Source: a virus. From it: DNA of 30,714 nucleotides. Location: the IMG/VR virus record IMGVR_UViG_3300036401_000829, positions 1 through 30,714 of that record; one strand, written 5' to 3'. A model generated the notes under the pieces. That model saw only the letters and a program-made list of their open reading frames with translations, made no database searches and was not told the DNA's origin. Shown piece after piece: positions 4,702 to 30,275 of this stretch. How positions within the stretch are numbered: position 1 is the stretch's first letter; the number at the start of each line of letters is the position of its first letter. Both the position numbers and the translations under genes were made by a program.

Positions 4702-5475
4702 GTGAATCAGGCCGTATCTCACAAATATCGTTTGCTGTTCAAGCTGCTTTTCAGCCGTCCGTCGGAATTTTTTGACCGGGTCAAGACAGCGGCTGAAGGA
4801 ATGGCGTCACCCCCGCAATCTTTCGCTGGGGCCAAAGGGCTTGATCTTGCGGCGATGCTGGATCTGAGTTCGAAATACCTGGGGCTAGACCTGAGCAGCT
4901 TCCTGCATGACCCGAGCGCCGAGGCCATCCGCGAACACATTGCTTCTGAAAGGGCGCTCCTGGAACGTCCTGCATCAGCCGCCATGCATGACGCCGATGC
5001 TGGACTCTCTGAGTTCTGCTATGTGATTTGCCGCGCGCTACGGCCGCGCGTTGTGGTGGAAACCGGAGTGGGCAGTGGAGTGACCACTTCTTTTATCCTG
5101 CAGGCCCTGGCCGCCAACAACGAAGGGCATCTCTGGAGCATTGACCTGCCGCCCATTGGCGCGGAACAGTTTGCCGGCAGCTTTGTGCCCCAACCGCTAC
5201 GCAGCCGCTGGACTCTGCTTCGCGGCCGCTCCCGGGATCTGCTGCCGCTGCTCTTGAACGACCTCCCTGCCCCTGACGTGTTCCTGCATGACAGCCTGCA
5301 TACCACCAGAAACATGACTTTCGAATTCCAGGCCGCATGGCAAAAGATGAATGCCGGCGGAGTTCTTCTTTCCGATGACATCCATATGAGCAAGGCTTTT
5401 GCGCGCTTCATCACCGGCAAGCAGGTCGGCCTGGCGCTGGCCGGCAAACGGTTCGGGGTGGCGTTCAAGCGCTAA
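4702..5475 (+). CDS. Class I SAM-dependent methyltransferase (Methyltransf_24-like)
   Basis: A 257-residue Rossmann-fold methyltransferase. The SAM-binding motif I is VVVETGVGSGVTTSFIL (about 117-133), followed by an acidic position at LWSIDLPP, and later PDVFLHDSLHTTRNM and GGVLLSDDIHMS, all typical of the methyltransferase 24 family. Members often methylate sugars or small molecules and sit near glycan genes; the substrate here is unknown. It is on the plus strand, between two minus-strand phage genes, and ends at a terminator-like hairpin, so it is probably an accessory gene expressed on its own. GTG at 4702 lacks a ribosome binding site. A role in modifying a surface glycan or phage receptor is possible but not shown. 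Confidence 0.82.
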   Translation: MNQAVSHKYRLLFKLLFSRPSEFFDRVKTAAEGMASPPQSFAGAKGLDLAAMLDLSSKYLGLDLSSFLHDPSAEAIREHIASERALLERPASAAMHDADAGLSEFCYVICRALRPRVVVETGVGSGVTTSFILQALAANNEGHLWSIDLPPIGAEQFAGSFVPQPLRSRWTLLRGRSRDLLPLLLNDLPAPDVFLHDSLHTTRNMTFEFQAAWQKMNAGGVLLSDDIHMSKAFARFITGKQVGLALAGKRFGVAFKR

Positions 5476-5575: not shown

Positions 5576-7450
5576 TCAGTTTCCGATCACCCAGTAGTAA
5601 AACGCATAATTGTTCCCGGCGACGCACGTCCCGTTGAGCCCGAAGAGCGCGACGGTCGTCGACATGCCGAAAGTAGCTGCCGGCACTGCGGGAGCAAACC
5701 CGTCCCCCCTAGTAGCCAGACCTACTGGGGCCGTCGGAAAAGCACCGTCGTGAAAAGTTAGCCGAAACCCGGGATTTGCTGATTGTCCTGTGCCCGAGCA
5801 CGCGATCAAAACCGTACCCGCAGTATCATTACCAGAGACCGAGACAACGCTCGCGGTATTGCCCCAACTTCCTAGGCCAAGGCCAGTAATGGCCCAATCG
5901 CCAATCACAACCGGCGTGCCTTGATTCGCTCTCAATCGATTTAATGGAGTAGTTCCGCCCAGCGTTTTGTTGGTCAAGGTGTCCGTCGTCGTCCGTGCAA
6001 CCAAGGTATCTGTCACCGCTGCGGGTAAAGTGAGAATGCCAGCGCCCGCAACTGAGGACGCCTGGACGATCGTATTGCCCGATGTTGCACCTGTCCACCG
6101 GATGCCCTGTGGGCTATTTAGAAAGAGAGTGCCGCCATTTCCTAATTGTATTGAGCTGCCAGCATTGTTCGTGAAGAGAATTCCGCCTGCTGCATCATTT
6201 GTGATGCTAGCTGGAAGGGTTTGCGCAGTAGTTTGGAGGGTAATGCCGCCAGCCGTCGTGATCGTTCCCGTAACGTCTGAAACGTTTGTTTTTGCTCCGG
6301 AACCGAGGAAAACACTGCCGCTAGTATTCCCCTGTACGAACGTGTTGGAATAAGGAGAGGAGTTTGAAATAAAGAAATGGCTTACACCGAGGTTGTCTGC
6401 GATATTAAACGCCGTTGTGCCAGAAACTTGTTTAATCGTCGCAACACCAAGCGTATTAGCGGCACCCATATTTACGTTGCTCAGCGAAGCAGTTCCTGCC
6501 ACGGAGAGCGTTCCTGGAATAATGGATCCGCCACTGCTCTGCATTGGCCCGGAAGAAACTGCATTTGATCCGTCGAACCAAAATTCCTGAGTGCTGCATA
6601 CTCCAGCCGCGCTCGCGATTATTCCCATGTTCAAAACATTGGCGGGCGGAACAAATGTCCGGCCCCCAACTCCGTCCTGGCAGATTTCAAAGGCCAGCGG
6701 CTCGCCGGCCACGGCATTGCTCAGCGTGGAACTGGTCACGTTTCCAGTCAAGGTGAGCTTAAAGGTTGAAGCCGTGGATGCGTCAAATGTGGGCGTGGCG
6801 GAGAAGGTGACTGTGGTCAAGGTCCCCAGGCGGCAATCCGTGCGTGAAGTCCCGGCATTATCGGAACAGGTGAGCCCGGCCATCATATTGAAAGCCGTGC
6901 GCTGCGGCTGGCCTACGCCTGAGCTGAAAATCTGCTGAAGGATGTTCCCCGGAATGTTCGATCCTGTCACGGTCCCGGTGAAAGTGGCGTTGCCGTTGCC
7001 TGAGAGGTTGCCGCTTACTGTTGTCCCGCTCAGCGGGGCCCCTTGCGCAAGATTGGTGGGCGCGTAGTTATCGAAGTTGAAGGTGGCCCCGGTGAAAGAA
7101 ACCAGCGTGTACCGCAACACTTCCTGCCCTGTGCTGGAATCCTTTACCGTGACGCGATAGTAAATTCCCGTGGGCGACGTGTTGGCCGGATTGGGCACGG
7201 TAAAACCCGTGACCACGCCGGCGGTCACGGCGGAGCAATAGCCCCGCTTGAGCGCCTGTCCGCCACCGCCAATGGAAACCGATATCGGGTTGTCGCTCTG
7301 ATCGGTAATCAGAAAGCAGAGCTGGCCGGCGGCAAGCTTGGAGCCGTTGATGTCGATAATGTTGGCCGCTGATACTGTGGTGAGGTTCTGGGCAAATCCT
7401 GAACCACAGAGGACACAGAGGAACACAGAGACAAGAAAAAGTTTCTTCAA
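5576..7450 (-). CDS. Tail-fibre-like protein with N-terminal signal peptide
   Basis: A 624-residue, Ser/Thr/Gly/Asn-rich beta-structured protein. Residues 1-20 form a clear Sec signal peptide (MKKLFLVSVFLCVL, then GSGFAQ). Residues 21-125 look like a beta-sandwich head; the middle has short repeats (SGNLSGNGNATFTGTVTGS) typical of fibre shafts; TDTLVARTTTDTLTNKTLGG (near 500) is a motif frequent in phage tail fibres; the C-terminal 110 residues may be a receptor-binding or trimerisation domain with several Cys. The start is TTG at 7450 with a good AGGAG site. Position after the tail-tip gene fits a fibre. A signal peptide is unusual for a virion protein assembled in the cytoplasm, so a secreted adhesin or surface protein remains an alternative. 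Confidence 0.78.
   Translation of the reverse strand: MKKLFLVSVFLCVLCGSGFAQNLTTVSAANIIDINGSKLAAGQLCFLITDQSDNPISVSIGGGGQALKRGYCSAVTAGVVTGFTVPNPANTSPTGIYYRVTVKDSSTGQEVLRYTLVSFTGATFNFDNYAPTNLAQGAPLSGTTVSGNLSGNGNATFTGTVTGSNIPGNILQQIFSSGVGQPQRTAFNMMAGLTCSDNAGTSRTDCRLGTLTTVTFSATPTFDASTASTFKLTLTGNVTSSTLSNAVAGEPLAFEICQDGVGGRTFVPPANVLNMGIIASAAGVCSTQEFWFDGSNAVSSGPMQSSGGSIIPGTLSVAGTASLSNVNMGAANTLGVATIKQVSGTTAFNIADNLGVSHFFISNSSPYSNTFVQGNTSGSVFLGSGAKTNVSDVTGTITTAGGITLQTTAQTLPASITNDAAGGILFTNNAGSSIQLGNGGTLFLNSPQGIRWTGATSGNTIVQASSVAGAGILTLPAAVTDTLVARTTTDTLTNKTLGGTTPLNRLRANQGTPVVIGDWAITGLGLGSWGNTASVVSVSGNDTAGTVLIACSGTGQSANPGFRLTFHDGAFPTAPVGLATRGDGFAPAVPAATFGMSTTVALFGLNGTCVAGNNYAFYYWVIGN
7399..7435. repeat. 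Dispersed CCACAGAGGACACAGAGG-type repeat inside the fibre signal peptide
   Basis: The plus strand reads GAACCACAGAGGACACAGAG and continues in the same period. This low-complexity word is related to both arms of the inverted repeat at 12142-12213. Here it encodes the hydrophobic core and the end of the fibre signal peptide (residues about 6-17). Confidence 0.7.
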
Positions 7451-7474
7451 TGGAATCTCCTGAAAAAGGGCTAG

Positions 7475-7528
7475 CCGCGAATTTCGCGAATGAACAGAAT
7501 CAGATTCGTTTTCATTGGGTTGATTCGC
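7475..7528. repeat. Inverted repeat upstream of the fibre gene
   Basis: CCGCGAAT at about 7475 pairs with ATTCGCGG at about 7521, enclosing an AT-rich loop with GAATGAACAGAATCAGATTC. It lies in the 125-base gap between the tail-tip stop and the fibre start. It resembles a chromosomal repeat rather than a terminator, because no T tract follows the stem on the minus strand. The same gap holds the word AGGCCAAGAGCTAAGAGCC. Confidence 0.5.
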
Positions 7529-7575
7529 GGCAAAAAAGGTTTGGTCTAAAGGCCAAGAGCTAAGAGCCGATTTTT

Positions 7576-10500
7576 TTACATCTGGGGAAGTTTGTTATTG
7601 CCGGTGCTTCCCGATCCGCCGGTGGTGTTTCCGCCGAGTCCTCCGCTGCTGCCGCCGGTACCGGAGCTATTTACCGTGGTCAATGAGCCTACACGCATCT
7701 GGCCGCGATAGACGGCCTGCACATAATCGTTGTAGTTGGCCCATGCCCGGTGCGTGGCCGCATTGAAATCGTAAGAAATCCAGTAAACCGTGCTGACTTG
7801 CGGAGCGCCCCCGACAACATCGACCGTGTTGATGGTTTGCGCCGGAATGGTCCTGAGAGCGCCCTGGTCTTTCATCTTCCAGGCGGTATAGCTGTTGCCG
7901 ACGCCTGAAGGCCCGAAAATCCTGATGTTGACGGCGGTGCCGGAAACGAATTGTGAATCAATGGTGGCATTGTTGGCCGGCGTCTCATCATGGTTGCCGA
8001 AGATCCCGTTAAAGGCGAAGCTGTAGGCCGTGGCGTTGGCCAGCGATTGTTCCATCAAGCCCTGAGAATTAAAACTGGTGAACTTGAAATAGATCGTCGT
8101 TCCGACAAGAGTGGGATCGGCTTCCCAGACAAACACGCCATCATCGAGCCGGAGAAAGACTGAGCCTGCATTGTGCGTTCCGATGGGCGAGCCGAAGACC
8201 CCGCGCCGCAACCGCGCCGCCACAGTCGCCGTTCCACCCGATGTGTATGCTCCGTTGCCGGTCGATCCGTTCAAGGTGAAAGTGTTCGCTCCCGTGACGA
8301 TAATCACCCATGTTCCATTGGCCGCCGTGTTCCCGCCGACTGAGGCCACTACAACGGTTTCTCCACTGTCGAGGCCATGATTGGCTGCGGTGATCTGAAT
8401 CGGGCTGGCGTTGGTGGCGCCGGTAATGTTTTGCGCTGAACCGTGTGCGCCCAGGTCATACTTAAACGATCCGGTAAGCGTCGCGTCTTCAAAGCTGATC
8501 AGCTCGCCATCGACGTAACAGAGCGTGCGGAAGTTGTCACAGTCAGACTGCGAGCCGGAATTCAGCACTCCGCTGGATTGCGTTACATCGACCGCTAAAG
8601 TGTGCGTGGTGTCAGGATCAGACGAAGATACAAGCTGCGCCGTGACCGCGCCCATGCGCGAAGGGCCGTACATGGTCCCGACCTGAACGTAATTGCTGTT
8701 GTCCGGCGAGAGCCAGACGTGGCAACCGCCCCAATCCTGATTGACCGCCACTCCGCCGGAGGTATAAGCGCCGGAGCCCACGGAATTGTTCAGCGTGAAA
8801 TTATTGGGATCGACAACCGTTACAGTCCAGTTTCCATTGGCCGCGGTATTGCCCAAAACGCCTGAGATGGTTGTTTTCTGGCCGTTCTTGTAGCCGTGAT
8901 TGCTGGCCGTGATCTGGATAGGCGTAGCGTTTGAAGCTGCCGTGATTGCCACCGTTGGCCCGCACACTCCAAGCCACACTTCATAATTTCCTGTCAAGCT
9001 GAGCCGGTCATTGGCTTCAAAGATAATCGGCGTTGCAACCGCGCCGGGATCTGAATTGGCTTGCGTGATAAACCCTGAGCCCGCCTGATGCGGATAGAGC
9101 GTTGGCGCTGCCGTTCCCCAGGGAAAGTCTTCGCAATCCACTTCCAGCTTGCCGGAATCGTCTTCGCGCATGGCCGTGATCCGCACCGGCTTTTTGTTGT
9201 AGCCAAGTTCCGGGATGGTGAGCGTTACCAGGTCCATGGGCTCCAGCAGGTTGAATTGCCAGCCCAGAGAAAACGTGTACGTTGCGCGGATTTCAACCGA
9301 TCTTTTACGCAGCAGATTCGCCGTGAACTTTGCCACAGTGGTGGTGGTGATGGAATGCGCCTGCACCGGCGACGCCTTGCGTAAACCGTAAAGCGCAATC
9401 ATAGCATCATCTTTGTCTTCGGCAACGTCAGGGTTGTAGTCATTGGCGCGATTGGCAAACTCAATCGAAACGGAATTCATCACGTCCGCCACCGATGGCC
9501 GCTTGATCACTACCGGCGTCAAAAGATCAGACGTTGTGAGATCGTAAATGGGCGCGGTGTTGGGAATGAAAGTTGCTCCATTGCCCACAGCCGTTGTATC
9601 GCCATAAGGGATGATCTTCAGAACGCCTTCGCTCCACACCGCTGCGGCATTGGTGATATCGAGAATCTCCTGTATCCAGGCGCTTGCGTCTTTTTGCGCG
9701 TCCAGCACCGGCGAAAGAAAAAGCCCGTTGGCGGTGCAGAAATTCTTGTACTGCGTTAGGTTGCCGATCGACACCACGCCGGTCATGCCGTAGAACTGGT
9801 TCGCCAGCAGGTCCGTGATGATGGCTGAAGGCTCCGCATCCGCTATTCCGGCGCCGAAGGGCAGCACGCCCAATACTTCAAAGCTCAAATTCGGCAGCGT
9901 TCCGGAAGTACCCAGGTCCATGGCGGATGACGCGACGTAAGCGATCCCGTTATAGCCAAGGTCCTGCCCCGGATGCGCTGAGGTCAGATAGCTCCACGGC
10001 GTCTGCGGCCGCGTGCCCAGAAAAACCGTGAGGCTTAGCTTCTGCTGTGGCTGGCCGTTGGAATTGGAATCCGGAATGGAGTAGACGTAGCTTATGGTTA
10101 TCACCTTGCCGGCATCGGCGGCGGAGAAAGTGAATGTTGCGCCTGATTGCGTGAACTGTCCCGCGCCGGGTGAGCTGCCGACTTGCACCATGGGCGTTTG
10201 CTGCGTTCCGGAAATACTAAATGAACCGTCTGAGCCGAAGTCGTTTGGAGTGACGCTCCATGTGTCCGCGCGCCCTACGCCCCGGTGCGAATGAAATACT
10301 CCCGTTCCCGGCGGTGTGACCGTGACTCCGCCGCCGCCGCCCGGCACGGTAAATGGCACGGTGGCGGAAATCATGGTCAATTTACCTTTTGTGTCCCAGA
10401 CATTGTGGATGTTCAGGATCGGCCCCTGGCACAGCGCCATGGCCACGGCGGTCTGATAGGTGTATGTGGTATTGGTTACCGCATTGCCGCCGCCGGAGCC

Positions 10501-22032: not shown

Positions 22033-23481
22033 TCAGGATGACAGCGGTTGAGATTCTGCGCCAGCTTGAACATCTTCTGGCAACTCAGAGTTCTGCTGTG
22101 CGCCTTTGATCTCTAAAGGAAAGATTCCACGCGTGGTGATCACCGCGTTACCCGCACCGATGGGATGCTTGCCCAGGCTTTCACGGACTTCGTCAATGGA
22201 GAGTACGCCGGCGCGGACATAGATGTCATCGATCTTTGCCTGCTCAAGCGGGTTCAAGGTGCGGTCCTGCTCCCAGACAAACTCGATGTCGCTAAAGCCA
22301 AAGTGGCGAGTCACGATGAAGTTGATAGTGTCTGCCAGGTAGCCGAGGATTGGAACAAGACCTTCCGCGGCCGCCTGCTCTACGCTCGTTTCAGCGGTGG
22401 CGCGGTTCATGACGCTAACAAACTGCTGGGGCGAGAGACCGAAGGCATAACAGACGATGCGGGTGATCCATTCGTCGAGCGCGTCTTTCAGCATGGGATC
22501 GCGCGTGAACTGGAGATTGCCGCACTCAGGAACAAAGGTGATACGGCGGCGGCGAGCAGAGTTTCCAGCCAGCGCACTGTCAAACCACTCCTGAAATTCG
22601 CTGATCTGGTCAGCCGACCATTCCTTGGGAACCTGCGCCAGGGCTTCAGGGACATTGCCCTCAGTGTAGTAATTGAGCAGATGAATCTGGCGGCGAAGGC
22701 CGATGTTGATGGTGAGAATGATCTGCTCGACCGGCGAGAAGCCAAAGAACTTGTGCGCTCGCACGTTGCGCGGGCGATAAATGAGCTGGTCGGCAGTGAA
22801 GTCAACGGCCGGCAGGCCTTTGAGGATTTGCTGGTATGCAATGGCCGGAGATGCCGGCGTGCGGCCCATGGCGTCAATCTTGCGTGCGATGGTGGAGCCG
22901 TCAATCACCTCAAGCGCATACAGCGCTTTGCCGGGAGACCACAACTCGCCATCCTGCGAGACGATAGGCACAAGGACAGGCGCATCGAGAACGAGCAGGT
23001 CTTCCAGCAGAAGTCGGACCCACTGTTGCCAGCTATGTTCGCGGTCAGGATAAGAAAAGAAATTTGTCAGCTGCGTGAGGCGCGGGTCTTGCTCTTCATC
23101 GTCATTGCCGCTGATGGCACTGTTGCTGGTGTTGGCGGAGCGTTTGGGCGCGCCGGGCTGCGTCTTCAAACGGAAGGCCCATGGCATGCGGCTGACCTGG
23201 TCTTTACGCGTCTCAATGCAGAGACGTACGAGATCAAACGAATCAGCCAGCGAGCGCATCTGCTCAAAGGAGATAGGCTCCATGTTGCGCGGCTGGATGT
23301 TGATGTTGTAGCCGACGGGGTAATCCAGCGTCCGCGGCGGAGTACCCGCGGGAGCGCTGGGCGACATGGGCAGGTCTGGACCAAACCACACGTCGAGCGT
23401 GTTGCGCAGCTTGCGGCCGACGCGCTCAACGAAGCCAGGCTCGAGCGCAGTAAGTTTTCCGCCATTGAGTGTTTCCGACAT
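22033..23481 (-). CDS. Portal protein
   Basis: A 482-residue phage portal protein of the HK97 gp3/lambda-like class, which forms the ring for DNA entry and exit. Typical segments include SFEQMRSLADSFDLVRLCIE with TRKDQVSRMPWAFRL (near 75-110), the LLEDLLVLDAPVLVPI region, FSPVEQIILTINIGLRRQ, and NRATAETSVEQAAAEGLVPI followed by the C-terminal EFVWEQDRTLNPLEQAKIDD. ATG at 23481 is chosen for its GGGGA site; an in-frame TTG at 23490 has none. The gene overlaps or abuts the small upstream gene. It is followed by a terminator-like hairpin and the protease. Confidence 0.92.
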   Translation of the reverse strand: MSETLNGGKLTALEPGFVERVGRKLRNTLDVWFGPDLPMSPSAPAGTPPRTLDYPVGYNINIQPRNMEPISFEQMRSLADSFDLVRLCIETRKDQVSRMPWAFRLKTQPGAPKRSANTSNSAISGNDDEEQDPRLTQLTNFFSYPDREHSWQQWVRLLLEDLLVLDAPVLVPIVSQDGELWSPGKALYALEVIDGSTIARKIDAMGRTPASPAIAYQQILKGLPAVDFTADQLIYRPRNVRAHKFFGFSPVEQIILTINIGLRRQIHLLNYYTEGNVPEALAQVPKEWSADQISEFQEWFDSALAGNSARRRRITFVPECGNLQFTRDPMLKDALDEWITRIVCYAFGLSPQQFVSVMNRATAETSVEQAAAEGLVPILGYLADTINFIVTRHFGFSDIEFVWEQDRTLNPLEQAKIDDIYVRAGVLSIDEVRESLGKHPIGAGNAVITTRGIFPLEIKGAQQNSELPEDVQAGAESQPLSS

Positions 23482-23482
23482 G

Positions 23483-23650
23483 TCAGGCAATCCCCACTTT
23501 CACGCCCATCACGGCGGAGGTTTCAATGATGAATTCAATCAGAGAGTTTTTACGATACGCGGACTTCATGTGCTCATCCTGAATACGCAGGCCCTCATGC
23601 CAGCGGCATTGGCCTGCGTCATCGATAATGTATTCCCCTGTCCATTTCAT
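23483..23650 (-). CDS. Small hypothetical protein upstream of the portal (55 aa)
   Basis: A 55-residue protein of unknown function. It contains MKWTGEYIIDDAGQCRWHEG and ends IIETSAVMGVKVGIA. ATG at 23650 has a GGGAG site nine bases upstream, which favours this start. The frame is also open for another 96 codons upstream through two copies of a 105-base repeat; since 105 is a multiple of three, the repeats keep the frame, and a 151-residue protein starting at 23938 is possible but less likely. Its stop lies one base before the portal start, so it is probably cotranscribed and coupled to it. Confidence 0.65.
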   Translation of the reverse strand: MKWTGEYIIDDAGQCRWHEGLRIQDEHMKSAYRKNSLIEFIIETSAVMGVKVGIA

Positions 23651-23667
23651 ACTTTGTCGCTCCCATC

Positions 23668-23877
23668 CATAATGTCGCTTCGCTCCAAACCGCTTCCGCA
23701 GCGTTGATAAATCAGGTGTTTTCTGCGCTGCGACAGGCAACTCGGCGAGTGGTCGGCCTCGCTGCTGTGTTTCATAACGTCGCTCCGCTCCAAACCGCTT
23801 CCGCAGCGTTGATAAATCAGGTGTTTTCTGCGCTGCGACAGGCAACTCGGCGCGTAGTCGGCCTCGCTGCTGTGTTT
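23668..23877. repeat. Two tandem copies of a 105-base repeat
   Basis: Copy one spans 23668-23772 and copy two 23773-23877; they differ at only a few positions. Each contains CTCCAAACCGCTTCCGCAGC, TTGATAAATCAGG and CTGCGACAGGCAACTCGGCG. Related words occur in the hairpin at 24069-24117 and near 26931 (GCGTTGATAAATC), so this is a dispersed element, not part of the phage core. Confidence 0.85.
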
Positions 23878-24068
23878 GCTTTTTCATATGTCGCTCTAAA
23901 CTTTTGTGTACTTGAGAAAGCAAAGTGGAATCAATCATGGCTCACGCGATGCTACGGCGGAGCCGTTCCCTCACCCACTCGGTCTCACCCGAAGGCTCGC
24001 CCTCGGAGTTCGGGATGGCAGATCGAGAGTGGAGGGTTTGGAGAAGCTGGGCGCGTGGTCCATCGCAG

Positions 24069-25093: not shown

Positions 25094-25677
25094 GGAAACA
25101 CCTCTGCGCCAGACGCAGGCTGGAGAGCATAGAAAGACCTGAGACGGAGCGGTATTTAGTACTTGATTTGGTATTTGGTGCGTGCAGCCTTAGCTTGAAG
25201 GCTTCAAAGTCAGGGCGTTCAAGCTCGGGTGGTTTGAACCAGCAAAATCTACAGAACCGTTAACTTGTTGATCTTAAAGTTTGGCTCTTTGGAGCGCTTT
25301 TTGACGGTTTTTGGGAACCTATCATTCTGCGATGGAGTAAAAACCCACGTGGGTCCTTGTGCTCTGCTCCCGATGTGAACGCGCATACCAGCCAACCAGG
25401 CGGACGACGCCACAACAAAAGCCCAGAATGAGGTTCCCGCAGCAGACGCAAACGGTACGCCGGCCTTGGAAAGGTTGCAGGCCGTTTGATTAAGCCGGCG
25501 CCGCTCCCGGCTATGCAGAACCAACTTCCGCCCTGCATAGACATCTTATACGACAATCCGCATCGTGAAGTCAATAGAAAAAATCACATTGCCTACTTTT
25601 TTACGAACTTTCCGCGTATTATCGGACATTGTCAACTATTGACAATTATTTAGACACTGCTTAGACTTCAGACACTT
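25094..25677. other. 584-bp intergenic region between divergent accessory genes
   Basis: This stretch holds no gene that I trust. Frames on the minus strand between 25249 and 25574 give composition without domain features and lack a good ribosome site. Near 25152 the words GTATTTAGTACTTGATTTGG and TATTTGGTGCGTGC match the low-complexity word near 1510. The right end carries the palindrome and promoter for the winged-helix gene. The AT content rises sharply from 25560 onward. Confidence 0.55.
25628..25667 (+). promoter_or_regulatory. Promoter with overlapping 19-bp palindromic operator
   Basis: ATTGTCAA-CTA-TTGACAAT (25628-25646) is a perfect inverted repeat with a three-base centre. Its right arm contains a consensus -35 TTGACA (25639-25644); 17 bases later is TAGACT (25662-25667) as -10. 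Transcription would start only a few bases before the ATG at 25678, so the message has almost no leader. A dimeric repressor at the palindrome would block the -35; the winged-helix product itself is a candidate, by inference. Confidence 0.65.
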
Positions 25678-26082
25678 ATGGCGCGCGAAACTTACAAGCA
25701 GGCATACGCGACAGCAAAGCTCGATCTGCTGCAACAACTACAAAAACGAGACGAGCTGGAACAGAAGATCCGCAAGCTGAAACAAACGGTCAAGGCCCTG
25801 GGCGAGTTGTGCGGCGCCGACCCGGAGGAGATCGACAAACTGCTCCTGGTAGAGGGCTTTGCCATTGACGCCAAGCCGGGATTTACCGATTCCATACGAC
25901 GGCTGTTCCGCATACACCAGACTGCGCTTAGCCCGACCGATGTCCGCGAGGACCTGGTGAAGATGGGCATCGGCGTGAGCCAGGTAAATCTTTTGTCGTC
26001 CATTCACACGGTGCTGCGACGCATGGCGGAAGCCGGCGAAATTGAAAAGACAGAGGACGGGGCGTTCAGGTTGCCGGGGTGA
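25678..26082 (+). CDS. Coiled-coil winged-helix protein
   Basis: A 134-residue protein. Residues 10-42 form a charged coiled coil (LDLLQQLQKRDELEQKIRKL). Residues about 70-132 form a winged-helix/HARE-like domain: SIRRLFRIHQTALSPTDVRE, then SSIHTVLRRMAEAGEIEKTE and a final GAFRL wing strand. Such domains bind DNA or act in small regulators. ATG at 25678 has no ribosome site, in keeping with a near-leaderless message from the promoter at 25639-25667. It is on the plus strand against the late operon, followed after 112 bases by the endonuclease III-like gene. It could be a regulator of itself and of that neighbour, but the pairing is inferred. Confidence 0.78.
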   Translation: MARETYKQAYATAKLDLLQQLQKRDELEQKIRKLKQTVKALGELCGADPEEIDKLLLVEGFAIDAKPGFTDSIRRLFRIHQTALSPTDVREDLVKMGIGVSQVNLLSSIHTVLRRMAEAGEIEKTEDGAFRLPG

Positions 26083-26180
26083 AACCTTTCAGGGGCCGCA
26101 GATTTCCGCAGATGAACGCAGATGCTTTTAGCCGCGAATGGACGCGAAAAAACGCGAATCGGAACACAAGTGGCTTATGC
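26083..26180. repeat. Dispersed repeat words between two accessory genes
   Basis: The gap contains GCCGCAGATTTCCGCAGATG followed by AACGCAGATGC and AGCCGCGAATGGACGCGAAA followed by AACGCGAATC. These periodic words recur in shorter form near 2485 and 7475. They also account for the open frame upstream of the real start of the endonuclease III-like gene. Confidence 0.6.
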
Positions 26181-26193
26181 TGTCAGAGACCAA

Positions 26194-26889
26194 ATGCCGG
26201 AATTCAAGAAAATCATTGCAAAGCTTAAAAGCCATTATGGCGCTCCCGCTGTGCCGCCTGCCAAAGGGCCATTCGAGCTGGTGATGTGGGAAAACGCATG
26301 CTACCTGTTGCCGGACGAGCGTCGCGCCGCAGTGTTCGAGGGCCTGCGAAAACAAATCGGGTTGAATGCAAAAGCAATCCTGAAAGCCGATCCCGATTCC
26401 CTGTTAGCGCTGGCCACGATGGGCGGCATGCGTCCCAAGGTGCGCGTTTTCCGCTGGCATGAGATTGCACGAATCACCATGAGCCAGTTTGATGGCGATC
26501 TGGCTCAGATACTCAAGCTGCCCTATGCGCAGGCCAAAAAGGCGTTGAAGCAGTTTCCAAACATTGGCGATCCCGGCGCGGAAAAGATACTGATGTTCTG
26601 CGGCGCATCGCCAGGACTACCGCTGGAGTGGAACGGCTTGCGTGTCCTGACCCGCGTTGGGTACGGACGGTGGCAGAAAAATTATGGCGCGGCGTATAGA
26701 TCTGTGCAAGAGGCGTTGAAACCTGAGCTGCCCCGCAAGGCCGACGCCATTGCCCAGGCGCATCTCTTGTTGCGGCAACACGGCAAAGAAATCTGCCGGG
26801 ATAAATCGCCGCAGTGTTATGAGTGTCCGGTGAAGGAGCGGTGCGCGTATCCGGCGAAGCAGGTCAAGATGTTCAGCCGGGGAGCGTGA
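26194..26889 (+). CDS. Endonuclease III-like HhH glycosylase with [4Fe-4S] motif
   Basis: A 231-residue member of the endonuclease III (HhH-GPD) superfamily. The C terminus has the cluster motif C-x6-C-x2-C-x5-C (CRDKSPQCYECPVKERC). The helix-hairpin-helix region reads LKQFPNIGDPGAEKIL, but the lysine that acts in bifunctional endonuclease III is absent, and the position of the catalytic aspartate appears as Glu in LEWNGLRVLTRVGYG. It is therefore perhaps a monofunctional or altered glycosylase. ATG at 26194 (MPEFKKIIAKL) is chosen because the duplicated fragment at 27141 is conserved from just before this codon and the upstream frame is made of repeats. It follows the winged-helix gene on the plus strand. 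A DNA repair, modification or defence role cannot be told apart. Confidence 0.85.
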   Translation: MPEFKKIIAKLKSHYGAPAVPPAKGPFELVMWENACYLLPDERRAAVFEGLRKQIGLNAKAILKADPDSLLALATMGGMRPKVRVFRWHEIARITMSQFDGDLAQILKLPYAQAKKALKQFPNIGDPGAEKILMFCGASPGLPLEWNGLRVLTRVGYGRWQKNYGAAYRSVQEALKPELPRKADAIAQAHLLLRQHGKEICRDKSPQCYECPVKERCAYPAKQVKMFSRGA

Positions 26890-27016
26890 TTTGTGCTGCA
26901 AGGGAAAATTCCATTTTAAAATCCATTGACGGCGTTGATAAATCCGCTTTGATACCTTGGGAGGCTGAAGCCGTGTTGTGTCGCCCCTACGGGGCTCGAA
27001 TCTATTTTCAGCCTTC

Positions 27017-27096
27017 TCGGCTCGCATGCGCTCGCCTTCAGGGTGGGCTAACCTGTGGTCGCGCCTAACGGCGCTTGGCGTTTCGTGCTGGTAGCA
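27017..27096. repeat. REP-like element, copy 1
   Basis: The element runs from GGCTCGCATGCGCTCGCCTT through CAGGGTGGGCTAACCTGTGG to GCGCCTAACGGCGCTTGGCG. The GCGCC-TAAC-GGCGC part is a perfect hairpin. Copy 2 at 27210-27286 is about 90 percent identical by eye, with short deletions. Confidence 0.75.
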
Positions 27097-27140
27097 TTGC
27101 GTCACTGGATAATGTTTGTCTACTCAGGATGACAATCCAA

Positions 27141-27240
27141 GTCAGACACCAAATGCCGGAATTCAAGAAACTGATTACGGAGCTCAAGTTCTTTCATCGC
27201 CTACCCTTCCCGGCTCGCATGCTCGCCTTCAGGGTGAGCT
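27141..27240 (+). pseudogene. Truncated 5' fragment of an endonuclease III-like gene
   Basis: Bases 27141-27188 closely match 26182-26229, the start of the endonuclease III-like gene. The frame from ATG at 27153 gives MPEFKKLITELK, against MPEFKKIIAKLK in the intact gene. After about twelve codons the similarity stops and the sequence enters REP-like copy 2; the frame closes at TGA near 27240. This appears to be the remnant of a second, paralogous gene cut by deletion or repeat insertion. The substitutions are codon-like, so the copy was probably a paralog rather than a recent duplicate. Confidence 0.7.
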
Positions 27241-27286
27241 GACCTGTGGTCCGCCTAACGGCGCTTGGTGTTTCATGTCGGCAGCA
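27210..27286. repeat. REP-like element, copy 2
   Basis: From GGCTCGCATGCTCGCCTTCA through GGGTGAGCTGACCTGTGGTC to CGCCTAACGGCGCTTGGTGT, a slightly shortened version of copy 1. It lies immediately after the truncated endonuclease III-like fragment, in the same orientation as copy 1. Confidence 0.75.
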
Positions 27287-27524
27287 GTTGAGTCAATCGA
27301 TAATCGCCCACCTGTTCCCACAGGAATTTATTTTTCATAAATATCAATCTTATCGAGCACATTTTCGAGAAAATGTTTTCGAGCTGGTGAAGGCTCGCAT
27401 CCTGAGAGATATGAGTTAACGCCTGCCTACACTTCCGGCTTCGTATTCCCAACCCAATACACGAAAACCGCGCGCGTTGGAGACCGCGGATCGCGCCGTG
27501 AGCGGATGTTAGTTGCCGCGATTG

Positions 27525-27703: not shown

Positions 27704-29716
27704 CTATTCGGGCGCTGAAGAAACCGCGCCCTCAGTGACGGAGCTCGGGATGACGGCTGGATTGGGGTTCGCCACTTCTTGACCTTGTGCCGTCATTTTT
27801 GGGATCTCCTCACCCACTAATTGGCGATTCGAGAAGAGTAAATCTAACCGCTCAATCTCCTTACGCGCCCACACAGCCGGAGGTTCGTTTTCAGATCCGC
27901 TCCATCTTGCCACAGCCTCATTCAATGCTCCACGGATTTCCGGATACTGTTTGGCGTTGCATTGGATATGACTGCCTTGAGCGACGGCGTCCATCACGTT
28001 ACGCCTCAGTACCGAATCTGCAGGCGAGGGCGCTTGCGGTCCATGGTCTTTTTTTGAGGCGCGTTCCGACTGCTTGATGATTCGTCCGGGCGCAACTTCA
28101 CCTGTGGCCTGCTGGCGATAGAACTCAACAATGCCGCCGCCGAGGCGGCTACGCATATAGATGAGAGCCTGCGAGGTGGCATCGATGTCATCATCATGCG
28201 CGGCCTTGGGAAACGTGCAGATGTTATGCAGATAGTCTTCTATCCAGGTGCAGCCGAAAACCTGCGGATCTGGGAGCTCAATGCTGCCGGATTCCCAGAG
28301 GGGCGCGGTGGCCTGGGCGCGGCCGATCTTGCCGCCTTCAGGATTGACAGCCACGACGCCGGGAATTTCTTTCCGCAACTCACTGATAATGGCTGGGCCG
28401 TTGGCCTTGTCTTCAATCAGCACGGCTTGGGCCTGCGGATACTTGGCATGGCAAGCCTTGATGGCGGCCATGGTGGGGCCAAAATCAAGCCGGTCATACG
28501 TGCGGTACGGCAGCATAAAATATTTTCCACCGGAGCGCCCCCACACCTGCCCGGCGACAAAGTCATTCTCCTGACCGCCGCTGAAGGTGCAGTCCCAGGA
28601 CTGGACCATGAACTCAAATTTCTCCGGCATCTGCCGATAGAAGCGCACCCACTGGCGCTTGATGATGCCGCCATCGAGCGGCGCAGGCGTTTGCTGGTAT
28701 TGTCCGTTGAAGGCCCAACTACCCATGCCGACGCGCTGGCTATCCAGAAAAGATTGCGGCAGACGCGCCGACCAGAGCAGGTCGCCGGCTTTCTGGTTTA
28801 CGACTTTCTTGGATTCAGGAAATTCCCACGGCTGATCTTTCTCTGCGACTGCGGGCAAGCTGACATGCTTCCAGCGGCTGCTTTCGCGGGCAAGGACGTG
28901 GCCGGTTAGATCAAGCTCATGCAGGCGCTGCATAATAATGATCTTTATGCCCTTGGCTGGATCATTGATCCGGCTGCGAAACGTAGTATCAAAGCGCAGG
29001 TTGACCGCTTCCCTTTCCACCTGGCTGATGGCCTGTTCCGGGTTGAGCGGATCATCAAAAATGAGGATGTCACCGCCCATACCGGTGGCTGTTGCCTGCA
29101 TGCCGGTGGAGAACATGGCACCCCGCGAAGAATTCCCATAGTGGCTTTTTACGTTCTGATCACGCGACAGCGTGAAGACGCTGGCCCACTCTTTCTGGTA
29201 CCACTCTGACTCAATAATGCTGCGGCGGAAAATGCTGTGCTGTGTGCTGAGCTTCTCAGAGTATGAAACGAACATGAACCGGCATGATGGCTTGCTGATC
29301 CAGACCCATATGGGGAAAAAGACGGAGATCAGCAGGCTCTTCATGGTCCGGGGAGGAACGTTAAAGATGATGCCTTCAAGATCGCCACAAACATCTTTAA
29401 AGTTCCCGTCCCTGATCAACGTGAGGTATTCACAGATGAGATCAAGATGCCAGTTCCAGACGAGAGTACTGACAGGTTCAAGGATGGGCCAGGCTTCTTC
29501 CACGAAGGCCCTAAGAGAGAGGTTGCGAATGCCAGACTGTTTTGCTGGTTCTGCCGCCACTTCAACTCCAGGCGGCGGAGCGCCACCCAATAGCGGGCCA
29601 GGAGCAGGACTTGACTGAAGTTGAAGCACATTACCGGAACTGCGACTCGCGTGGCTCTTTGCTGTCTCACGTTTGCTTTTGCGGTCATTTTTTTGCAAAC
29701 CTTGTTTTCCAGTCAT
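27704..29716 (-). CDS. terL: Terminase large subunit
   Basis: A 670-residue large terminase of the TIGR01630/Terminase_6 kind, the motor and nuclease that packages DNA. The ATPase half has a Walker A-like PPRTMKS (121-127), a variant of the common PPRHGKS, and Walker B ILIFDD (217-222). The nuclease half shows acidic residues in QSWDCTF (Asp375), LIEDKANGP (Glu435, Asp436) and HDDDIDAT (508-513). The first 60 residues are basic and Pro-rich, and residues about 545-670 form an extension beyond the usual nuclease end, possibly a small domain for another packaging partner. ATG at 29716 has AGGA upstream; the frame is open to 30211 but overlaps the previous gene. No small terminase was recognised. 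Confidence 0.92.
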   Translation of the reverse strand: MTGKQGLQKNDRKSKRETAKSHASRSSGNVLQLQSSPAPGPLLGGAPPPGVEVAAEPAKQSGIRNLSLRAFVEEAWPILEPVSTLVWNWHLDLICEYLTLIRDGNFKDVCGDLEGIIFNVPPRTMKSLLISVFFPIWVWISKPSCRFMFVSYSEKLSTQHSIFRRSIIESEWYQKEWASVFTLSRDQNVKSHYGNSSRGAMFSTGMQATATGMGGDILIFDDPLNPEQAISQVEREAVNLRFDTTFRSRINDPAKGIKIIIMQRLHELDLTGHVLARESSRWKHVSLPAVAEKDQPWEFPESKKVVNQKAGDLLWSARLPQSFLDSQRVGMGSWAFNGQYQQTPAPLDGGIIKRQWVRFYRQMPEKFEFMVQSWDCTFSGGQENDFVAGQVWGRSGGKYFMLPYRTYDRLDFGPTMAAIKACHAKYPQAQAVLIEDKANGPAIISELRKEIPGVVAVNPEGGKIGRAQATAPLWESGSIELPDPQVFGCTWIEDYLHNICTFPKAAHDDDIDATSQALIYMRSRLGGGIVEFYRQQATGEVAPGRIIKQSERASKKDHGPQAPSPADSVLRRNVMDAVAQGSHIQCNAKQYPEIRGALNEAVARWSGSENEPPAVWARKEIERLDLLFSNRQLVGEEIPKMTAQGQEVANPNPAVIPSSVTEGAVSSAPE

Positions 29717-29765
29717 CGATTTTCCTGTCTTTGATTCCAGCCATGGGTTCCCGACGCGTGGGCCC

Positions 29766-30275
29766 TTACCCCTGAAACGACGCAGAGGACATTTGCTGCT
29801 GATCAAGCGTTTCAGCCGGCAAGGCCGCTTCACTTTCAACTTCGAAATCACAATCAGATCCGTCGTCGAAAGAAGGGAGGGTTGCAATGTTTTTACGCCA
29901 TCCGACATAAAGGGCAGTTTTGACTCGATGAGAGCCCGCGGCGTATTCCCAGATGGCAGTCCCATTGATGTTGCAGCTGGTATCACGCAGATAAGTAATT
30001 TTGGCAAATGTGAGCTGCAAGGCGTTGTTCTGATGAATGAACCTAGCCATTCCGTCTCTGACGAGGTTGACGGCCGACCTGAACCTGACAGTGAAGGCAG
30101 GAGTAGCGGGATAAGCACGCTCGCACAGCACAGCCTTGCCCTGACTGCACCGTGCGCATGGATCTGACACACAATGCGCGTGAATGGCGCAGGTATAGCA
30201 CGGGTGGCCAAGAAGGCATGGAGAGAGCAACGTTAGCTGATGCATTCGATATACGGGTACAAAATACTGGGACAC
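29766..30275 (-). CDS. Cys-rich protein upstream of the terminase
   Basis: A 169-residue protein with a cysteine cluster near the N terminus (HPCYTCAIHAHCVSDPCARC, then VLCERAYP), which could bind zinc. The central part reads MARFIHQNNALQLTFAKITY and INGTAIWEYAAGSHRVKTAL, beta-rich and protein-like, and the end is acidic. GTG at 30275 has a GGAG site; ATG at 30050 (MARFIHQ) is an alternative that would drop the cysteine cluster. It ends 49 bases before the terminase start. The small terminase is normally in this position, but the sequence does not show the expected helix-turn-helix, so the role stays open. Confidence 0.65.
   Translation of the reverse strand: MSQYFVPVYRMHQLTLLSPCLLGHPCYTCAIHAHCVSDPCARCSQGKAVLCERAYPATPAFTVRFRSAVNLVRDGMARFIHQNNALQLTFAKITYLRDTSCNINGTAIWEYAAGSHRVKTALYVGWRKNIATLPSFDDGSDCDFEVESEAALPAETLDQQQMSSASFQG

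Follow-up and report, generated by a model that had tools for sequence, protein, structure and literature searches.

What are two plus-strand genes doing inside the minus-strand late operon of a temperate phage, and is the glycosylase-like product of the second one a broken enzyme or a working one? The DNA analysed, hereafter the window, is the 30,714 nt IMG/VR virus record IMGVR_UViG_3300036401_000829, and its source belongs to a group of temperate phages of soil acidobacteria. Across the whole window the minus strand carries terL, portal, major capsid and tail genes and a tyrosine integrase, the last of these at the left edge. The initial annotation had described a winged-helix gene (wH) followed by an endonuclease III-like gene (EG) on the plus strand within this operon, and we recovered both ORFs with terL and portal flanking them (Table 1). 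The start of EG given there is the one conserved among relatives, while a longer 255-residue ORF from 26122 is not kept in them. Elsewhere in the window, a further plus-strand ORF of 257 residues (4702-5475), methyltransferase-like by eye only, sits between minus-strand tail-side and lysis-side genes and is possibly a second accessory gene. A minus-strand ORF (23483-23938) contains two near-identical copies of 30-odd residues (QRGRLRAELPVAAQKTPDLSTLRKRFGA) and resembles a translated dispersed repeat. An intergenic repeat lies between EG and terL in two copies that are 85% identical (27012-27113 and 27205-27304), is also present in L101, L103 and L104, and is probably a dispersed repeat of host or phage.

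Table 1. Positions of the features discussed, numbered from the first letter of the window.
Feature	Position	Strand	Remarks
Portal protein	22033..23490	-	next identified structural gene past the other island border, downstream side
Candidate structured RNA	25466..25545	-	80 nt, two hairpins; start of leftward transcript
Divergent leftward promoter candidate	25545..25574	-	TTGACT (25574-25569), 18 bp, TATAAG (25550-25545)
Perfect inverted repeat TTGTCAA-CTA-TTGACAA	25629..25645	.	covers the -35 box
Rightward promoter candidate TTGACA-17-TAGACT	25639..25667	+	-35 at 25639-25644, -10 at 25662-25667
wH	25678..26082	+	134 aa; first and most constant cargo-island gene
EG	26194..26889	+	231 aa; HhH-GPD/[4Fe-4S] DNA glycosylase relative
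Remnant, 5' end of a second EG copy (MPEFKKLITELK...)	27154..27192	+	
Terminase large subunit (terL) ORF	27704..30211	-	one border of the cargo island, upstream side

Using a BLAST-type search we found DrEndoIII-1 (DR2438; NF053634; PDB 4UNF) to be the top known match of EG (6.8e-12, and 1.9e-13 by profile). An AlphaFold2 model, which is a prediction built from 20 rather close sequences, gave a confident HhH-GPD fold (pLDDT 89.7, pTM 0.84), with DrEndoIII-1, Nth and MutY as its best PDB folds in Foldseek. We built a tree of 57 HhH-GPD proteins, in which the phage, chromosomal and deep members of the EG family together formed a single clade (support 100/99) that adjoins the DR2438-like proteins (93/84), with the Nth, MutY and MagIII-like clades separate from it; the deepest family member, L057, carries a long-branch warning. 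The closest known protein by clade, sequence and fold is DrEndoIII-1, which has the [4Fe-4S] cluster as well and is described as mostly monofunctional (PMC9268735). It differs in that DR2438, like most of its clade, retains the Lys and Asp that are discussed below. No family assignment above cut-off was obtained in PHROGs, Pfam, NCBIfam or PADLOC, with EG scoring 20.9 bits against the nth cut-off of 211.7 and 47.5 bits against the curated NF053634 (DR2438-type) cut-off of 400. Likewise, a Pfam search for PF00730 did not report the window EG itself, and the deep family member L045 came close to that cut-off. The EG branch is apparently uncatalogued.

Examination of the active site showed that the lysine column of Nth (Lys120, in the HhH hairpin) is occupied in EG by Pro127, within a G125-x-P-G-A motif common to most of the family. 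In the Asp138 column, where Nth and MutY have Asp, EG carries Glu145; Asp itself is found there in L005, L012, L045, L049, L050 and L052. All four cysteines of the [4Fe-4S] loop C-x6-C-x2-C-x5-C are present (C201, C208, C211 and C217). The initial annotation had read the protein as an altered relative of endonuclease III, with the iron-sulfur motif, no catalytic lysine and Glu for the key Asp, and each of these features held up. Tree and careful alignment both disagree with an ordinary Nth bearing the lysine, since EG falls outside the Nth clade and has none; fold and iron-sulfur loop are what it shares with Nth, from which it differs in lacking the lysine and in having Glu33 and Glu145.

Glu33, part of a WEN motif, aligns with MutY Glu37/43 when compared with the E. 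coli and acidobacterial MutYs, in a column that is Thr or Val in Nth and Thr/Ser in DR2438-like proteins, and Asn147 falls in the column of MutY Asn140/146. Together with R150 and the four cysteines, both residues are invariant in 20 close EG relatives and nearly so in the wider family, while in the distant paralogues L053 and L055 (P145) Glu33 and the 145 carboxylate are both gone, a sign that these two work together. In MutY, the base is protonated by Glu43, Asp144 serves to stabilise the cation, and Asn146 forms bonds with both Asp144 and the backbone (PMC12871665). As these MutY-type catalytic positions are kept, EG resembles a monofunctional glycosylase and not a broken bifunctional one, and the equation of a missing lysine with a dead enzyme was rejected because the MutY-type residues are conserved across the family. 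Judged by its residues, the altered EG should not be read as degenerate, its Glu being one state of a family-wide Glu/Asp position that has MutY-like partners.

The likeness to MutY extends to Glu 37/43, the carboxylate at 138/144, Asn 140/146, the absence of Lys and the [4Fe-4S] cluster. However, MutY forms a separate clade, and EG has Glu145 instead of Asp. Against a MutY-like reading there are also Pro127, where MutY has Tyr/Ser, YLL in place of the QQT wedge, and the absence of the 8-oxoG-reading C-terminal domain, as EG ends shortly after its iron-sulfur loop. With this domain and the wedge missing, the substrate of EG need not be adenine. EG represents a well-bounded glycosylase branch with a predicted catalytic set unlike that of every clade compared here, and its natural variants (E/D at 145, and the paralogues without both acids) make the mechanism directly testable.

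We compared 11 islands that are readable from terL to portal, window included. wH is present in ten of them, and EG spans its full length in seven, survives as a remnant in L099 and L102, and is missing from L100 and L104. One full-span copy has a stop after residue 168 (L098/L020), and in another (L106/L024) the active-site loop is enlarged by a tandem insertion that keeps the frame. In L024, where EG spans 6001-6810, the insertion adds two 17-residue units to this loop, the one bearing Glu145. As several phages (L016, L020, L099 and L102) have a broken EG or have lost it, the gene is dispensable. Three islands also contain a phosphoesterase (PF04185) operon, before or after EG. Besides the PF04185 protein, this operon encodes a small protein rich in Lys and another that begins with a signal-like stretch and is possibly located in the outer membrane (L020 2728-5769, L021 2656-5677, L023 2527-5557 and L019 6976-9975). 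In L024 a toxin-antitoxin pair of HipB-HipA type follows EG (7005-8605). In the outgroup phages L108-L111, terL and portal lie close together without wH or EG.

Given these varying contents, EG is exchangeable cargo and wH the constant gene of the island. The two had been proposed as an accessory pair, and they do occur together in 10 of 11 phage EG loci, but the pair is not obligate: wH occurs without EG, L023 has EG without wH, and chromosomal EGs have no wH. As a variable insertion that is absent from related phages and has a candidate promoter of its own, the island resembles a moron or lysogenic-conversion cargo, which it also matches in its orientation opposite to the surrounding late operon and in its captured host gene. 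For Acidobacteriota, a soil phylum that is abundant but little studied, it provides an example of a DNA-repair-type enzyme among the interchangeable cargo of phages.

We found EG at 15 genome loci, mostly in acidobacterial MAGs, with one isolate (Bryocella elongata) and one Rhodanobacteraceae record. Two of these (L002, L016) belong to prophages of the same type as the window and the other 13 are chromosomal. No wH was detected near EG at any of the 13 chromosomal loci, so the wH-EG pairing belongs to the phage lineage only. The chromosomal neighbours are ordinary metabolic genes, and the three chromosomal EG genomes checked (G001-G003) also contain Nth and MutY relatives. The phage EGs group in a single clade (100/99) that lies within the acidobacterial chromosomal copies, for which a single capture from an acidobacterial chromosome is the simplest reading. 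No other EG-family gene was found in the two prophage-bearing MAGs, which may be incomplete. Likewise, INPHARED phages and PLSDB plasmids yielded no close EG, the best plasmid relative being 35% (Gemmatirosa). For the phage copies, dN/dS was 0.03-0.08 (about 0.05) with synonymous sites near-saturated, and for wH it was 0.04-0.20; this strong purifying selection on both marks wH and EG as real genes.

Upstream of wH, the initial annotation had reported a strong promoter with a palindrome over its -35 box, and we confirmed both, with an exact palindrome and 10 of 12 consensus positions matched, a strong promoter by consensus. The wH ATG lies 10 bp past the -10 box, so the wH mRNA may be nearly leaderless. 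Perfect repeats with 7-bp arms and a spacer of 0-3 number only nine in the window, and 0.04 are expected per 130 bp. Across 19 relatives the element TGTCAA-N3-TTGAC is exact in nine, has one mismatch in five, is reduced to five-base arms in one and is lost in four. TTGAC, TTAGACA, TTAGACT and ACACTTATGGCGCG are nearly or fully invariant in the same relatives, and the left arm of the palindrome varies. Furthermore, an opposing minus-strand promoter-like site (TTGTCA/GATAAT) overlaps the palindrome, so its symmetry may reflect two back-to-back -35 boxes and not an operator. A role as the wH operator was downgraded on account of this overlap and of the four relatives in which the left arm is gone. 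The predicted structure of wH has a long coiled-coil-like N-terminal helix and a C-terminal winged helix (model pLDDT 82.6). Its fold search returned Fur/Zur-like winged helices, none with E <= 0.001, and wH matched no PADLOC model. Autoregulation of the island by wH is plausible, but the repression of EG suggested in the initial annotation found no support here.

Taking the observed island anatomy, family, residues, purifying selection and ancestry together, we consider it reasonably probable that this is a lysogenic-conversion cargo island encoding a monofunctional, MutY-like base-excision glycosylase. In the late operon of temperate acidobacterial phages, a moron-type island would have entered between terL and the portal side. 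From its own rightward promoter the island would express wH, a small DNA-binding protein by which it is probably autoregulated. Exchangeable cargo would come after wH, here EG, captured once from an acidobacterial chromosome. EG would most likely be an active monofunctional base-excision glycosylase, in which Glu33 may protonate the flipped base or place the water, Glu145 may stabilise the sugar cation, and Asn147 may hold the Glu145 carboxylate and the DNA backbone, as in MutY. Lyase chemistry would not be expected, as there is no lysine. The likely benefit would be repair of damaged DNA, either the lysogen's or the phage's.

A related and possible reading, to which we give less than even weight, keeps the cargo island and treats EG as a separate monofunctional HhH-GPD branch in which a body like that of EndoIII-1 is joined to a MutY-like Glu/(Glu or Asp)/Asn site, and whose base specificity has no known counterpart in Nth, MutY or MagIII. 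Temperate phages of acidobacteria would distribute it as conversion cargo, perhaps for use against a lesion particular to the host or against a modified base of foreign origin.

Could EG instead have lost catalysis and act as a DNA- or lesion-binding protein, such as a scaffold, a DNA charge-transfer partner or a transcription factor? The missing Lys, the acid changed to Glu and Pro127 in the HhH hairpin would fit, as would the relative DrEndoIII-3, which has a solved structure and for which EndoIII activity was not detected. However, E33, E/D145 and N147 are kept together even in distant members and lost together only in L053 and L055, and position 145 is D or E in several lineages, the pattern that a working carboxylate would give, so we judge loss of catalysis unlikely.

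The initial annotation had also suggested a defence role. In one form of this idea EG would act like Brig1 and Brig3 and cut modified bases out of the DNA of rival phages. Base removal of this kind by glycosylases is an established means of defence (PMC11078745, PMC13160076). Lysogens are often protected by cargo of their prophages, one island contains HipBA, and EG is lost and regained as accessory genes are. Brig1 and Brig3 are likewise DNA glycosylases in accessory DNA, although this is an analogy only: they have the fold of the uracil-DNA-glycosylase superfamily and sit in defence islands (PMC11078745, PMC13160076), whereas EG is HhH-GPD. The suggestion found no backing in PADLOC, where EG has no match, or in the metabolic chromosomal neighbours, which share no defence context, and the very low dN/dS is atypical of an arms-race weapon; a Brig-like role appears quite unlikely. 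Modification or hypermodification of the phage's own bases is highly improbable: EG is phage-borne and has a base-flipping fold, but no modification genes were identified in the window, the nearest relatives are bacterial chromosomal genes, and sister phages that share the structural genes lack it. That EG is an ordinary endonuclease III acquired by the phage, as its fold and iron-sulfur motif might suggest, can be dismissed as extremely improbable given its position outside the Nth clade, the absent Lys, Glu33, the low nth score and the Nth and MutY relatives already present in three chromosomal EG genomes.

Beyond what is typical of moron cargo, the island has a second late-type promoter copy and a structured RNA. 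Both TTGAC and the TATA block of the leftward promoter, which immediately precedes the RNA, are conserved in 22 aligned phages. In the RNA hairpins pairing is kept in 98.8% of cells, with four pairs changed on both sides, and the covariation score was reached by none of 500 shuffles, while slid controls fail. Rfam gave no match for the RNA. A covariance model detected the element not only in the islands but upstream of terL as well, in the island phages L002 (9580-9651) and L107 (957-1028), in the island-less L109 (1526-1605) and weakly in L108. Weak genome matches of the model (20-25 bits) lay mostly in GC-rich sequence and were set aside as probable chance. We infer that the RNA is a leader of the late operon and that a second copy of promoter and RNA arrived with the island or was retained by it, so that genes past the opposing cargo are still transcribed. 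The neighbouring RNA is thereby a second testable object, namely RNA-based control of a phage late operon. The HK022 putL RNA is ~70 nt (PMC9378689), and the two are alike in size, in having two stem-loops and in their promoter-proximal place; no homology is claimed, and by this analogy the RNA is possibly a put-like late-operon leader.
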